Below are positions 13,072 to 64,000 of a DNA stretch of 64,000 nt, in pieces; position 1 is the first letter of the stretch; every line of letters starts with the position of its first letter. Origin of the DNA: an uncultured Paracoccaceae bacterium (lineage in GTDB: Bacteria > Pseudomonadota > Alphaproteobacteria > Rhodobacterales > Rhodobacteraceae). The DNA lies in assembly GCA_947498645.1 (NCBI GenBank), contig CANMKS010000001.1:2704032-2768031 (forward strand), given 5' to 3'. The notes under the pieces are model-generated. The model ran no database searches. It saw only the letters and a list, made by a program, of their open reading frames with translations, and had not been told where the DNA came from. A program made the translations under genes and the position numbers.

Positions 13072-14001
13072 ATGACCCATAGGAATGAATTTGCCCCAAT
13101 CGCGGGCCAGCCGCTGGCGCTGGCCGCTGATCTGGCTGTTGTTCTGGCCCCAAACCCGTCGCCGATGACCTATCTGGGTACCAATACCTATCTGATTGGC
13201 CGCGATGCGCTGGCGGTGATTGATCCCGGCCCGGCAGATGAGAGCCATCTTGCATCGCTCTTGCAGGCAATTGATGGCCGGCCCGTGGAACATATCCTGC
13301 TGACCCACAGCCATCTGGATCATTCGCCCCTGGCCGGCCCGCTGGCCGCCGCCACCGGCGCGCCAATCCTTGCCTTTGGTGACAGCAACGCAGGGCGCAG
13401 CCCCGTCATGGCGCAACTTGCCAAGGGTGGATTGGTTGGCGGCGGCGAAGGGATCGACCATGAATTCCAACCCGATGAAACGATAGCCGATGGCGCCGTT
13501 ATTGCTGGAAACTGGGGGCAAGTGACAGCGCGTCACACGCCAGGCCACATTGGCAACCACTTATGCTTTGCTTGGGGTGACGCAATGTTCACGGGCGACC
13601 ATGTGATGGGTTGGGCCAGCTCTTTGGTGTCACCGCCGGATGGTGATCTGACCGATTTCATGGCGTCATGCGACACACTCGCAACCATTCAAAGCGAAGT
13701 TTACTACCCCGGCCATGGCGCACCAATTCACAAACCGATGGAACGGTTGCAATGGTTGATCACCCACCGCAGGGCGCGCGAGGCACAAATTATTGAGGTT
13801 CTGCAGAACGGACTGATGGGCGTCAGACAGACTACACAGGCCGTCTATTATGACGTACTACCGGCCCTGTTACCCGCCGCCGAACGCAACGTGCTGGCGC
13901 ATCTGATCGACCTGCATACCCGCGGCAAGATCACGGCACACCCTGCCCTGTCGGCACTGGCAGAATTCAGCATTCCCGCCGATAAAACCCCGCCTGCATA
14001 A
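13072..14001 (+). CDS. MBL-fold metallo-hydrolase (LACTB2-like)
   Basis: 309 residues, cytoplasmic. The metallo-beta-lactamase fold motifs are present: LLTHSHLDHSPL (His79, His81, Asp83, His84), ARHTPGHIGNHL, MFTGDHVMGW and a final YYPGHGAPI. The C-terminal ~80 residues form a winged-helix-like domain, as in LACTB2-type enzymes, which act as hydrolases or endoribonucleases rather than beta-lactamases. Divergent from the kinase gene with 44 bp between starts. Substrate not predictable. Confidence 0.85.
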   Translation: MTHRNEFAPIAGQPLALAADLAVVLAPNPSPMTYLGTNTYLIGRDALAVIDPGPADESHLASLLQAIDGRPVEHILLTHSHLDHSPLAGPLAAATGAPILAFGDSNAGRSPVMAQLAKGGLVGGGEGIDHEFQPDETIADGAVIAGNWGQVTARHTPGHIGNHLCFAWGDAMFTGDHVMGWASSLVSPPDGDLTDFMASCDTLATIQSEVYYPGHGAPIHKPMERLQWLITHRRAREAQIIEVLQNGLMGVRQTTQAVYYDVLPALLPAAERNVLAHLIDLHTRGKITAHPALSALAEFSIPADKTPPA

Positions 14002-14028
14002 GTTTCCGAAAATCTGCGCAAAACCCAC

Positions 14029-14057
14029 TAGACGTCCCTGAATCGCATTGCTATAGG
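14029..14057 (+). promoter_or_regulatory. Probable promoter of tRNA-Asn
   Basis: TAGACG (14029-14034), 17-bp spacer, TATAGG (14052-14057), followed by the tRNA 5' end at 14070. Spacing and position fit a short-leader tRNA promoter. The -35 element departs from TTGACG by one base. Confidence 0.5.
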
Positions 14058-14069
14058 GTGCCCGAGTGT

Positions 14070-14144
14070 TCCGACGTAGCTCAGCGGTAGAGCAGTTGAC
14101 TGTTAATCAATTGGTCGTAGGTTCGATCCCTACCGTCGGAGCCA
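14070..14144 (+). tRNA. tRNA-Asn (anticodon GTT)
   Basis: 75 nt including encoded CCA (14142-14144). Acceptor TCCGACG pairs with CGTCGGA, the D arm contains AGCTCAGCGGTAGAGC, the anticodon stem GTTGA/TCAAT encloses CTGTTAA (anticodon GTT), and the T arm contains GGTTCGATCCC. Its 3' 20 bases plus one further base recur exactly at 15699-15719, marking it as an integration target. Confidence 0.95.
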
Positions 14145-14145
14145 A
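14125..14145 (+). repeat. Left copy of 21-bp direct repeat (att-like, 3' end of tRNA-Asn)
   Basis: The sequence begins GATCCCTACCGTCGG and ends AGCCAA. It covers the T-arm 3' strand, acceptor 3' strand and CCA of tRNA-Asn plus one base. The identical 21 bp occur in the same orientation at 15699-15719. A duplicated tRNA 3' end is the usual trace of site-specific integration by a tyrosine recombinase. Confidence 0.85.
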
Positions 14146-14566
14146 ATTTCATTACTTGCCCACTGAAACTCTTGTTTATAGAGTTTGCTCCTCTGATAGT
14201 TGATTTGCAGGCAACATTGGGGTTACTTTTGGCAATGGCCATACTGACCAAGCTTTCAAAATTCTGGAACAAATTTGCCCCACGCGAATGCGGCGACAGT
14301 CGATGCCACATATGCGGGTGTTGAGCGAGACTGGGCCAAAGCGCGAGCGTTGGTATTTCCGACCATTCTGCCTCTGGCAGGATCTAGCGGCCTAGGGCCA
14401 ATCCACCGTGACTGACGGATAAGGGCACAGACAAGTCAATCGCTGGAACAATGTTGTGTAAGGCGATCCCTCTCAAAGCAAGAGCCAGCGGGTCAGCTGC
14501 CCGAGGCAATCAATTCGTCAGTTGCCAGTCTTTACTATGCAGCGACCTTCAATGTAGCAATTTGCC
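14146..14566. other. 421-bp stretch without a convincing gene
   Basis: Left part of the tRNA-Asn island. No reading frame on either strand resembles a known family. A short plus-strand frame near 14290-14410 looks protein-like (ATVDATYAGVERDWAKARAL) but has no credible start and hits a stop, so it may be the wreck of a gene that cannot be named. No integrase motif was found. Confidence 0.4.
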
Positions 14567-15334
14567 ATGAACGCTGCCGCCAAACACCGCAATCACCGAA
14601 GATTTCTAACGCTTCCCAGCCCCGATACGGCGCGTTTTCGTTACGCCCCCGGCACGGGCAAAGATCTCATCATTTCTTTTGCGAGCATCGGGCGCAGACG
14701 CGCGCAGATGCCACCAGATGAGTTTGTTGGTTCGGTTCTACAAAACGATCAAGCTCATTGCCTGTTTGTTAGTGACATCAACAGATCGTGGTTGAATGAT
14801 GATGCGCTGTGCCGCGGGTTGCAAACTGCGGTCAAGGGGATTCAGACCGACCGACGGATATCCCGAACGATCACATTGGGTCTCAGCATGGGCGGTTTTT
14901 CTGCCCTCGTATGTGCCGCTCTGTTTCCCGTTGATGTTGCTATAGCAATTTCTCCGCAGTTTACTGTTTCGCAACGGCTGGTGCCCGCAGAAAGACGGTG
15001 GGCTTACTGGCGCAAACAAATCCAACATCATCGCTTGGCCAATGTTGACTTGGCGACGCCAACACCGCGGCACAGCTTCATCCTTCATGGTGCCGTCGAT
15101 GACAGCCAGCATTTAAGCGCCTTTGCCAAGCGGCGAAACAGAGATCATTTTGTTTTTCCCAAGCTTGGCCACTCCGAGCTTGGCCCGATGCTCAAAGCAA
15201 ACGAGGCGATCGGGCCACTGATCAGCGCGGCACTGGAAGGCAATCGCTCAGATGCCGCACACTGCATCAAAAGATGCGGCGGCGTGTGGCGAGCCCGTTA
15301 TGAATTTGACGAAAGCGACACAAGCTTGGCTTGA
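14567..15334 (+). CDS. Alpha/beta hydrolase-like protein in the tRNA-Asn island
   Basis: 255 residues without signal peptide. A nucleophile elbow GLSMGG (Ser107) follows a hydrophobic beta strand, with Asp178/179 in HGAVDDS and His202 in KLGHSELG completing a plausible catalytic triad. The N-terminal half (LFVSDINRSWLNDD) resembles uncharacterised hydrolases rather than a named esterase. The last ~35 residues (AAHCIKRCGGVWRARYEFDE) look unrelated and may be read-through past the original end. It is the only intact gene in the island. Substrate unknown. Confidence 0.65.
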   Translation: MNAAAKHRNHRRFLTLPSPDTARFRYAPGTGKDLIISFASIGRRRAQMPPDEFVGSVLQNDQAHCLFVSDINRSWLNDDALCRGLQTAVKGIQTDRRISRTITLGLSMGGFSALVCAALFPVDVAIAISPQFTVSQRLVPAERRWAYWRKQIQHHRLANVDLATPTPRHSFILHGAVDDSQHLSAFAKRRNRDHFVFPKLGHSELGPMLKANEAIGPLISAALEGNRSDAAHCIKRCGGVWRARYEFDESDTSLA

Positions 15335-15465
15335 GCATGTCGCCATGTACCGGCTGATTGACGCCGCTTGCAAAGTTCGGCGCAGGCTTGGCACGTGGAA
15401 GAGCTGCTCAGAAAAAATAGGCAATCCCGAACGGCCACCTTTGAAATGGGTCGCATATAAGCGGC

Positions 15466-15621
15466 TTAGTCGTCGCCAGTCGCCGATGTCGCGTAGATTG
15501 AAACACCTGTGCCCATGGTTGAGTTGAGGGCATCTTCTTTGTGTATCTGCCCTTGGCACCAGTTGTCTTGACTTTGCTGACCGCATCGACAAATGCCTTC
15601 ATGTTCCCTTCGATTTGGTGT
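15466..15621 (-). pseudogene. Frameshifted 3' fragment of a ribosomal protein L1 gene
   Basis: Read on the minus strand, one frame gives QIEGNMKAFVDAVSKVK then TTGAKGRYTKK, the characteristic C-terminal L1 block. Immediately afterwards the match continues in another frame as ALNSTMGTGVSIYATSATGDD and a TAA stop (15466-15468); S-T-M-G-x-G-V is the L1 C-terminus. So a one-step frameshift separates two halves of the same domain. Only ~50 of the usual ~230 codons remain and no start is present. Upstream similarity fades before 15621. The functional rplA must lie elsewhere. Confidence 0.75.
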
Positions 15622-15698
15622 TTGAGGATACACGGTCGTTCCAAATTCACCCTAGTCGCTAATTTCAATAGGGTACAAGTTTCGAAGTGGCGGGCGAT

Positions 15699-15719
15699 GA
15701 TCCCTACCGTCGGAGCCAA
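15699..15719 (+). repeat. Right copy of 21-bp direct repeat of the tRNA-Asn 3' end
   Basis: Exact copy of 14125-14145 in the same orientation. The preceding bases do not continue the tRNA sequence, so only the 3' segment was duplicated. It lies 37 bp beyond the 3' end of the aldehyde dehydrogenase gene. Confidence 0.85.
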
Positions 15720-15755
15720 TTTCTCAAAACAGACCGAAATTGGCCGCCTTGCGCG

Positions 15756-17207
15756 CTATGACAGCCGGATCGCGATGTTTTTGGTTTGCACGTAGTTCCA
15801 CAGTGCCTCGCGCCCTTTTTCGCGTCCGTAGCCGGATTTTCCAAAGCCGCCAAAGGGGGTTTCGACCCCGCCCGCGAACCATTCGTTCACAAACACCTGC
15901 CCCGCCCTGATCTGGCGCGCAGAGCGTGTGGCCCGGTCAAGGTCACGGGTAAACACGCCACCCACCAGACCGTAAGGCGTGCCATTGGCAATGCCGATCG
16001 CTTCTGCCTCATCGCGGAACTTCATCACTGACAGGACAGGCCCGAAAATCTCATTGCTGGCAATGTCCATATCCGGGGTCACTTCTGTCATCACGGTAGG
16101 CTCCAGAAACGCGCCGGGACGGTTGAGCTTACGCCCCCCGGTGGCGATCTTGGCACCTTCACGTTGCGCATTCTGGATGATCCCAATGGCACGATCACGC
16201 TGCGCGTCAGAGACCATCGCCCCCATAGTCGCACCTGTCTCATCCCGTTCGATCCCCGGCCCGACCGAGAGTGATTTGGCGATGCCTATCGCACGTTCCA
16301 CCACTTCATCATGCCGGCTTTCATGCACGATCACCCGCGACATCGCCGAGCAGACCTGCCCGGCATTAAAGTAGATGCCCCAGCGGATATCACGCTCAAA
16401 TGCGTCAAGATCGGCATCGTCATGCACGATTGCCGCCGATTTTCCGCCCAATTCCAGCACGCAAGGCACCACGTTGCCTGCCGCCGCTTTTGCAATCGCA
16501 ATGCCGGTTGGCACAGAGCCGGTAAAGACGACCTGATTGACGTCCTGATGCTCCGCAAGGGCCGCCCCTGCCTCATGCCCCAACCCGCAGAGGATGTTCA
16601 CCGCACCAGCGGGGAAACCTGCCGCTTCGGCGGCTTTGGCCAGATAGGCATTGGTCAGCGGTGTCATTTCGGGGGATTTGATGACGCAGGCGTTGCCCGT
16701 GGTCAGACCTGCGGACAAGGATCGCGCACTCATCTCGATGGGGTAGTTCCACGGGATGATCTGGGCCGAAACACCAAAGGGCGCGTTTTCGGTAAAATCG
16801 AAGTAGCCCTTGCCCAAGGGGATCGAGCGGCCCTCGACGGTGCTGGCCTGATTGCCGTAATATTCAAAATAAAGCGCGGCACCGGCGACCTCGATATGGG
16901 CCTCCCACAGGGGTTTGCCCTGCTCGCGTGTCAGGGCTTCGGCAATCTCGTCCTTATGGTCCAGCAGATAGCGCCCCATGGCCTGCACCATGCGCCCCCG
17001 TTCAATCGGGCGCATGTCGGTCAAAACACCCGAATGATGCACCCGCCGCGCGGCCTGCACGGCGCGGTCCACGTCTGCGGCATTGGCCAATGCATGTTCG
17101 GCCAGTTTTTCACCGGTGGCCGGATCGTTCACGTCGATCCGGCCAGCCCCGCCATCGACCCAGGCACCATCAATATAGTTTTGCCAATATGGTTTGATCT
17201 GCGCCAT
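15756..17207 (-). CDS. NAD(P)-dependent aldehyde dehydrogenase
   Basis: 483 residues, full length for the ALDH superfamily. Visible are the Rossmann/cofactor segment IIPWNYP and SAGLTTGNACVIKSPE, VFTGSVPTG, catalytic Glu in LELGGKS and catalytic Cys in NAGQVCSAMSR, and C-terminal NEIFGPV and PFGGFGKSGYGRE. An AAGGGG Shine-Dalgarno precedes the ATG. Betaine-aldehyde and gamma-aminobutyraldehyde dehydrogenases are close relatives, but substrate is not resolved. It lies next to an amino-compound catabolic region, so oxidation of an amino aldehyde is plausible. Single gene, 115 bp from the PLP lyase-like gene on the same strand. Confidence 0.9.
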   Translation of the reverse strand: MAQIKPYWQNYIDGAWVDGGAGRIDVNDPATGEKLAEHALANAADVDRAVQAARRVHHSGVLTDMRPIERGRMVQAMGRYLLDHKDEIAEALTREQGKPLWEAHIEVAGAALYFEYYGNQASTVEGRSIPLGKGYFDFTENAPFGVSAQIIPWNYPIEMSARSLSAGLTTGNACVIKSPEMTPLTNAYLAKAAEAAGFPAGAVNILCGLGHEAGAALAEHQDVNQVVFTGSVPTGIAIAKAAAGNVVPCVLELGGKSAAIVHDDADLDAFERDIRWGIYFNAGQVCSAMSRVIVHESRHDEVVERAIGIAKSLSVGPGIERDETGATMGAMVSDAQRDRAIGIIQNAQREGAKIATGGRKLNRPGAFLEPTVMTEVTPDMDIASNEIFGPVLSVMKFRDEAEAIGIANGTPYGLVGGVFTRDLDRATRSARQIRAGQVFVNEWFAGGVETPFGGFGKSGYGREKGREALWNYVQTKNIAIRLS

Positions 17208-63260: not shown

Positions 63261-64000
63261 CACCTGCCGACCAACCGATGGCCCGTTGGGTGCAGGTGTT
63301 TCTAGAGGCGCAAGCCGCCGAATTGGATGCCGCCACCAACACGCAACTGGCCTACGCGCGTGATTTGCAGTCTTTTGCAGAATGGTTGCAGGACAAATCA
63401 GTGCACTTCAGCACCGCAAGCCGCGACCATGTCGAAGGCTATCTGATAGATTGCGAGGCCGAGGGCCTTGCCAAATCGACCCGTGCACGCAGGCTTTCTG
63501 CCATCAAACAGCTTTACCGCTTCGCCTTTGAAGAAGGCTGGCGCGACGACAACCCCGCCATCCAGATCAAAGGCCCCGGACGCGCGCAGCGGCTGCCAAA
63601 GACGCTTGATGTTGCCGAGGTCGACCGCCTGCTGGATGCCGCACGCAACACCAAACGTGATGCGTTGCGCAACGCCTGCCTGATGGATCTGCTTTATGCC
63701 ACAGGAATGCGCGTGACCGAACTGGTCAGCCTGCCTGTTTCCGCAGCACGGGGTGATCCGCGCATGTTGCTGGTGCGCGGCAAAGGTGACAAGGAACGGC
63801 TGGTGCCACTCTCGCCCCCTGCCCGTGCGGCGTTGGCCGACTATCTGACCCACCGCGACAATCTTGAGCAAGAGGCCCGCGCGGAAGGCAAACCACCGTC
63901 CAAATTCCTGTTCCCATCGCACGGCAAGGCGGGCCACCTGACACGCCATCGGTTCTTTGGGCTGATCAAGGAATTCGCGCGCGACGGAGGGGTTTCTCCT
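63257..64000 (+). CDS. xerD: Tyrosine recombinase XerD, 3' part cut by the window edge
   Basis: 248 codons present. N-terminal SAM-like core-binding domain (~8-95: FLEAQAAELDAATNTQLAYA, then SAIKQLYRFAFEEGWRDDNPA) and the start of the catalytic domain with Arg152 in YATGMRVTELVSL and Lys176 in VRGKGDKERLVPL. The HxxR and catalytic Tyr lie past 64000. Length and motifs are those of housekeeping XerD, which resolves chromosome dimers at dif with XerC, not of a phage integrase. Confidence 0.92.
   Translation, partial: MTPADQPMARWVQVFLEAQAAELDAATNTQLAYARDLQSFAEWLQDKSVHFSTASRDHVEGYLIDCEAEGLAKSTRARRLSAIKQLYRFAFEEGWRDDNPAIQIKGPGRAQRLPKTLDVAEVDRLLDAARNTKRDALRNACLMDLLYATGMRVTELVSLPVSAARGDPRMLLVRGKGDKERLVPLSPPARAALADYLTHRDNLEQEARAEGKPPSKFLFPSHGKAGHLTRHRFFGLIKEFARDGGVSP

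Follow-up and report, generated by a model that had tools for sequence, protein, structure and literature searches.

A 1.57-kb segment between 21-bp repeats of the tRNA-Asn 3' end in a Paracoccaceae bacterium consists largely of DNA from the interval between rplJ and rplA

Integrative elements which have lost their genes for integration and transfer and have kept both attachment sites, attL and attR, are known as cis-mobilizable elements (CIMEs) according to the definition given in PMC5704250. Islands in tRNA genes (tDNAs) have been collected by the Islander search, which, as outlined in PMC4383910, drops candidates shorter than 2 kb or lacking an integrase. In Haloquadratum, a 6.7-kb remnant bounded by tRNA-Thr and devoid of an integrase has been presented (PMC3119063), and among the ssrA islands with 20-bp repeats mentioned in PMC3146451, some carry no integration module.

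The window, i.e., the whole stretch of DNA analysed here, comprises 64,000 nucleotides from an uncultured Paracoccaceae bacterium. It harbors a complete tRNA-Asn gene (anticodon gtt; 14070..14144, plus strand; ARAGORN and Rfam RF00005), the target gene of the insertion described below. The last 20 bases of this gene and one base past the CCA, together GATCCCTACCGTCGGAGCCAA, form a 21-bp repeat that is found at 14125-14145 and again, exactly and in the same orientation, at 15699-15719 (repeat comparison). Both copies lie 1574 bp apart, start to start, and represent the cores of attL and attR; over a length extended to 24 bp, they are 96% identical. Judged from the tRNA sequence, the repeat starts at the T-loop, and it belongs to the T-stem (J) class of the tDNA attachment sites distinguished in PMC4383910. 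When up to two mismatches are allowed, the 3.38-Mb genome contains the 20-mer GATCCCTACCGTCGGAGCCA exactly twice, and the same pattern read backwards gave no match in the genome at the same tolerance. The expected number of occurrences of a given 21-mer is 1.5e-8 per single strand of 64 kb, and the longest other exact copy among 60 random 30-mers of the window measured 15 nt. Based on the genome-wide count, the expectation, and this control, a chance repeat was ruled out, so that the exact repeat of the tRNA 3' end reported in the initial annotation is confirmed. The two tRNA-Ser genes also share 21 nt, as is usual for homologous tRNAs. An intact tDNA followed downstream by a displaced 3' fragment in the same orientation is the arrangement of tDNA-integrated genomic islands, as listed by Islander (PMC4383910). 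Unlike those, the unit found here is shorter than 2 kb and carries no integrase, and would hence be rejected by the search described there.

A query consisting of the upstream gene and the tRNA was matched in all 56 genomes of the genus, our own included, and longer stretches 3' of tRNA-Asn (1.8 to 19.7 kb each) were taken from 22 of the 55 congeners. Empty sites were identified by means of the downstream flank, an aldehyde dehydrogenase gene (15756..17207, minus strand; Pfam Aldedh), which among these 22 relatives follows tRNA-Asn only in G037 and G034 (88% and 79% identity over the upstream query, respectively). In both genomes, tRNA-Asn joins directly to the sequence that here resumes behind copy 2 (15720..15743, junction alignment), and our own flanks, once joined, align over this clean single junction, which represents an empty attB. 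The GCCA of copy 2 and 15720-15743 together form a hairpin, GCCAATTTC...GAAATTGGC. The remaining 20 relatives have different DNA 3' of tRNA-Asn without the aldehyde dehydrogenase flank and are thus not decisive. Since repeat anatomy and two empty sites agree, the 1.57-kb segment is inserted at the 3' end of tRNA-Asn, as had been proposed from the repeat; the opposite possibility raised at that time, namely that the second repeat is part of a conserved unrelated gene, does not apply, as copy 2 is intergenic and outside any conserved gene. Precise loss from both G037 and G034 would also yield empty sites, but a single gain is simpler. Apart from that, the aldehyde dehydrogenase gene beside tRNA-Asn is broken by deletions in G037 (L053:9670-10350) and intact in our genome and in G034.

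Concerning the content of the segment, positions 14250-15620 of the window are colinear with the interval between the ribosomal protein genes rplJ and rplA in one congener (G026) and in a Roseovarius isolate (L149). A search with the insert DNA matched 23 of the 56 genus genomes, our own included, and in 22 of these 23 the match covers the 3' end of rplA over about 150 bp. G026 revealed three ordered matches, upstream of rplJ, in a hydrolase gene, and at the rplA 3' end, and the gene order rplJ, hydrolase, rplA, with the same orientations, recurs in L149. Along the insert, the 5' leader of rplJ (L10) comes first (14250..14500, minus strand; alignment, both limits approximate) and ends about 10 bp short of the start codon. 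It is followed by an intact open reading frame of 255 aa for a putative esterase-like alpha/beta-hydrolase with a GLSMGG nucleophile motif (14567..15334, plus strand; sequence comparison), and by the decayed counterpart (15415..15445, alignment) of a hairpin-like sequence which lies 3' of rplA in G026 and, judged from its place, is probably a terminator. The last 51 codons of rplA (L1) follow as a pseudogene fragment with a 1-bp frameshift (15466..15620, minus strand; sequence comparison); the L1 identity of the full rplA gene of our genome was assigned by Pfam. The spacers 14501-14566 and 15335-15414, assigned to the slice solely by position, gave no match beyond one of 27 bp, and the slice ends sharply on the right, at 15620/15621.

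Pfam gave no match at E values up to 1 for three smaller ORFs scanned in the segment, nor did the ORF and Pfam scan reveal a recombinase, excisionase, or phage gene. The segment thus holds one ORF with a homolog and no recombinase, in agreement with the initial annotation; it lacks both the integrase gene of a typical tDNA island and the phage genes of a phage or satellite relic. Distant blastn searches (E 1e-5 and 0.01) against phage and plasmid records resulted in no match to the insert, and among RNA families, 13900-16000 revealed two matches besides the tRNA, far below the gathering scores. The whole insert was found in none of the 55 congeners. The interval between rplJ and rplA varies between species: in G026 it contains a PAS-GGDEF-EAL gene (L060:5351-7174), and ORFs of about 600 aa lie at a like position in G033 and G006. 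A lost GGDEF-EAL gene in the insert was considered and dropped, because the hydrolase match in L149 lies about 410 bp from the rplJ start, which leaves too little room.

In regard to the source of the slice, the rplA piece shares 81.3% identity with G026, G011, and G033, 78.1% with our own rplA, and 73.5% with that of G034, which is the sister of our genome and G037, and the leader shares 56.4% with G026, 54.8% with G034, and 49.4% with our own. The rplA fragment ends in GDD, which is nearer to the GND of G011, G033, G043, and G002 than to our own GNA. In a combined tree of 20 rows, the insert, marked as a long branch, pairs with G026 (support 96/91) and is separated, with G034 among others, from our own sequence by a 100/100 branch. 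Taken together, the slice most likely came from another species of the genus. The alternative without any foreign DNA, in which the host lineage would have duplicated its own rplJ-rplA interval, we regard as improbable. It would agree with AU tests, in which a grouping of our genome, G037, and the insert was not rejected (p 0.22 combined; p 0.40 for rplA alone with 27 rows), with the leader of G034, which is of the insert's type and nearly as similar to it as that of G026, and with a rearrangement separating our own rplJ and rplA, which could have freed the old interval. However, fragment and own rplA differ at 17.5 of 34.7 synonymous sites (dS 0.84), compared with a dS of 0.30-0.48 between our genome and G037 in three genes, one of which is a broken gene with 158 codons compared. 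An own copy made after the split from G037 would rarely reach 17 differences (P 0.0002, 0.015, and 0.076 at a total dS of 0.24, 0.38, and 0.48, respectively), and both the GNA end of our rplA and the other type of our present leader speak against the duplication as well. A copy made after that split appears unlikely as the source, and an older copy within our own lineage, subsequently lost from G037, possible. As to the arrangement of the locus itself, rplJ and rplA of our genome are 26 kb apart and swapped in order (G000:C1:1334242-1360833; L129, L130), the contigs of G037 are compatible with the swapped order, and in G034 both genes are neighbours. Part of the block is flanked on both sides by a repeat, read by eye as EF-Tu.

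The two coding parts of the slice differ in their decay. The rplA fragment showed a dN of 0.13-0.18 to four genomes, whereas intact rplA ends, compared four times, gave 0.02-0.04; the fragment has thus drifted. A hydrolase drifting equally long should be accelerated as well, but the counts of unique residues show otherwise: our hydrolase has 22 and the G026 copy 30 with a Roseovarius outgroup (249 sites), and 20 and 26, respectively, with L100 as outgroup (247 sites). In a simulation with substitutions only, 10-12% neutral change left 255 codons free of stops with a probability of 0.09-0.06, so that the open frame by itself is suggestive, not decisive. S107 (in GLSMGG), H194, and H202 are invariant in all 11 aligned proteins including ours, which corresponds to the GxSxG nucleophile and the conserved histidine of alpha/beta-hydrolases. 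Our protein stays below the Pfam cut-off, the G026 copy is just above that for Esterase, and a PDB sequence search with the hydrolase gave a single match at E 0.82. Judged from the rates, the rplA piece appears to decay as if neutral and the hydrolase does not, and the latter is probably functional.

At E 1e-12, the hydrolase matches six of the 55 congeners, G026 with 54% and five others with 31-35%, and none of the 55 is closer than 54% protein identity. Members of the wider superfamily were found in 184 of 394 family genomes at E 0.001, our own included (best other 48%), and no L1 or L10 match was detected in flanks of about 1.5 kb at the loci taken from this search. Single-protein queries, which reach close relatives only, led to seven pattern stretches in viral contigs, none of them confirmed, and to 36 in GTDB r220 contigs, of which one was confirmed, namely a Roseovarius isolate (52%).

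Outside the ribosomal slice, a left arm of about 104 bp (14146..14249, plus strand; right limit approximate) and a right arm of 78 bp (15621..15698) remain. Similarity of the left end to rplJ and of the right arm to rplA is not above that of shuffles. Together with the core, the non-slice DNA amounts to 78+21+104 = 203 bp, about one attP, compared with the attP-sized non-cargo DNA of about 250 bp quoted for Islander islands in PMC4383910. Among the 394 family genomes, the left arm had no match longer than 24 bp and the right arm none at E 0.001 except our own. Short left-end matches (19-24 bp) were found in four other genomes; these loci harbor no tRNA-Asn (one tRNA-Leu in L171), and one of them, L170, revealed nothing att-like when read through.

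The left arm carries GGGGTTAC (14219-14226, plus strand) 74 bp past the tRNA, near the position of GGGGTAAC in some tRNA-Asn-integrated elements. The common motif GGGGTWAC, picked post hoc after being seen, occurs in four of 35 distinct 150-bp stretches that follow the tRNA-Asn end (anticodon onward; second copies included) in the loci collected. Apart from the stretch described here (distance of 74 bp past the tRNA), these are G022 (63 and 75 bp) and the IMG/VR elements L157 and L163 (79 bp each). Elsewhere, 24 occurrences were counted in 1.36 Mb (both strands, partly overlapping loci), six of which form tandem pairs close to the distal end of L157, L160, and L163; in L157 and L163 this is the end where the integrase is located (L157's by Pfam). 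Within the window the motif appears once more (32798, minus strand), and the right 78 bp contain no copy. From their placement, the copies may be considered putative arm-type integrase sites. The idea that the left arm ends in the start of an integrase gene was dropped, since L157 and L163 have their integrase at the opposite end.

Within the stretches taken, three of the 22 relatives carry the tRNA end a second time, namely 7.9 kb downstream in G022 (17-bp core), 9.6 kb downstream in G010 (19-bp core), where a DUF6538/Phage_integrase gene adjoins the tRNA, and 12.3 kb downstream in G019 (49-bp core from the anticodon region). Thus, tRNA-Asn is used by elements with a short 3' core and by elements with a long core. 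L157 and L163, elements of 10.5-11 kb between tRNA-Asn repeats, also have second copies that begin at the anticodon region, not at the T-loop. L157 (10.5 kb) encodes an integrase, a capsid protein, and a terminase above the Pfam cut-offs and a portal protein just below, and presumably resembles capsid-forming satellites. Compared with these tRNA-Asn elements of roseobacters (L157, L163, and G022), our segment shares the target gene and GGGGTWAC, which lies 75-79 bp past the tRNA in them, but they are about 8-11 kb in size.

Based on these features, the segment is probably a relic of an integrative element without recombinase, similar to a CIME, in which attP arms were joined to a chromosome slice, most likely a foreign one, and which was kept for its hydrolase. 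As the anatomy and both empty sites show, a circular DNA with a compact attP (about 78 bp, the 21-bp core, and 104 bp) recombined with the T-loop/acceptor part of tRNA-Asn, presumably by a tyrosine recombinase, restoring the tRNA and displacing the 21-bp copy. Most or all genes of the element, among them that of the recombinase, would have been lost, and its body now consists of the slice from the rplJ-rplA interval. Judged from the rates, the hydrolase brought in by this slice has probably remained under selection, in contrast to the decaying rplA end. The slice could have joined the arms either by illegitimate capture on the element or by filling of a break in a resident one, and since the non-slice DNA of 203 bp is about one attP, two routes are favoured: a bare attP captured the slice, or a resident element was patched with it. 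As no recombinase, excisionase, or phage gene is left, the class of the element can be deduced from its ends only.

Filling of a break is, as an explanation of its own, doubtful. A phage, satellite, or island at tRNA-Asn would have suffered a break or deletion that was patched with incoming linear DNA, e.g., a gene-transfer-agent or transformation fragment with the rplJ-rplA interval, leaving the outermost arms. Neither junction is far from an att core, larger elements occur at this tRNA in the three relatives with distant second copies (7.9, 9.6, or 12.3 kb), and PMC3646047 describes gene transfer agents, which package random host DNA, as conserved across the greater part of the Roseobacter clade. 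Nevertheless, the deletion would have to end no more than about 100 bp from either att core, with a foreign insert in the same place, and an intact predecessor was not found. Rather unlikely, too, is the capture of the core-chromosome slice between ribosomal genes by a bare attP and its delivery, with a recombinase from another element, to the tRNA gene of a different species; if true, ordinary chromosomal genes would gain site-specific mobility by way of a minimal cassette that has no recombinase of its own.

A unit without recombinase would need one in trans to move, and mobility without outside help is unlikely. Both cores are intact, and the genome has nine PF00589 matches, eight of them over the cut-off, so that an active minimal cassette moving today with an integrase in trans could be imagined. 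We nevertheless consider this very improbable, as the rplA tail has decayed, which implies that the segment has resided here for long, the whole insert is found in 0 of 55 congeners, and none of the 393 other family genomes matches the left end over more than 24 bp or the right end at E 0.001. Furthermore, eight of the nine integrase matches were compared with the tRNA-Asn integrase of G010, and the best reached 34% identity over 155 aa. The strongest of the nine is a Phage_integrase-family gene running off the right end of the window (63602-64000, continuing to G000:C1:2768172). Of the two options left by the initial annotation, a larger island that decayed or a small cargo moving with help, the evidence leans to a stripped relic, and neither is proven.

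Taking the relic as the preferred reading, the segment shares with CIMEs, as characterized in PMC5704250, att-flanked DNA without a recombinase and a retained gene: attL and attR are kept and genes for integration and transfer are absent, their former presence being an assumption. CIMEs are described there as decayed ICEs or IMEs, whereas nothing of an ICE or IME remains here, with no conjugation gene left and arms that match nothing of length, and what makes up the body is core-chromosome DNA. The Haloquadratum remnant likewise consists of a partial tRNA copy with no integrase nearby and was read as a prophage or integrative-plasmid remnant (PMC3119063), but it is archaeal and larger, has an imperfect 57-nt copy, and no slice of core chromosome appears in the account of it. 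In the titles and abstract openings that were looked through, an att-flanked slice of a ribosomal locus was not found, by which we do not claim its absence from print. The earlier statement that such units are rarely described therefore has to be qualified: integrase-less, att-flanked remnants are a named kind (PMC5704250), a tRNA-bounded remnant without integrase is documented (PMC3119063), and the statement holds insofar as such units go uncounted by Islander, because candidates below 2 kb or without an integrase are rejected in the procedure given in PMC4383910. The unit is ordinary in kind and odd in content, and this content, core-chromosome DNA of the rplJ-rplA interval, is what is new here and was unforeseen in the initial annotation. 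Altogether, the case shows that units bounded by tRNA repeats and falling short of Islander's thresholds for size and content do exist, that they can house core-chromosome DNA, and that a single gene in them can be maintained by selection. Should they prove common, tRNA attachment sites would serve as a so far uncounted route for some of the slow exchange of chromosomal genes among marine roseobacters.
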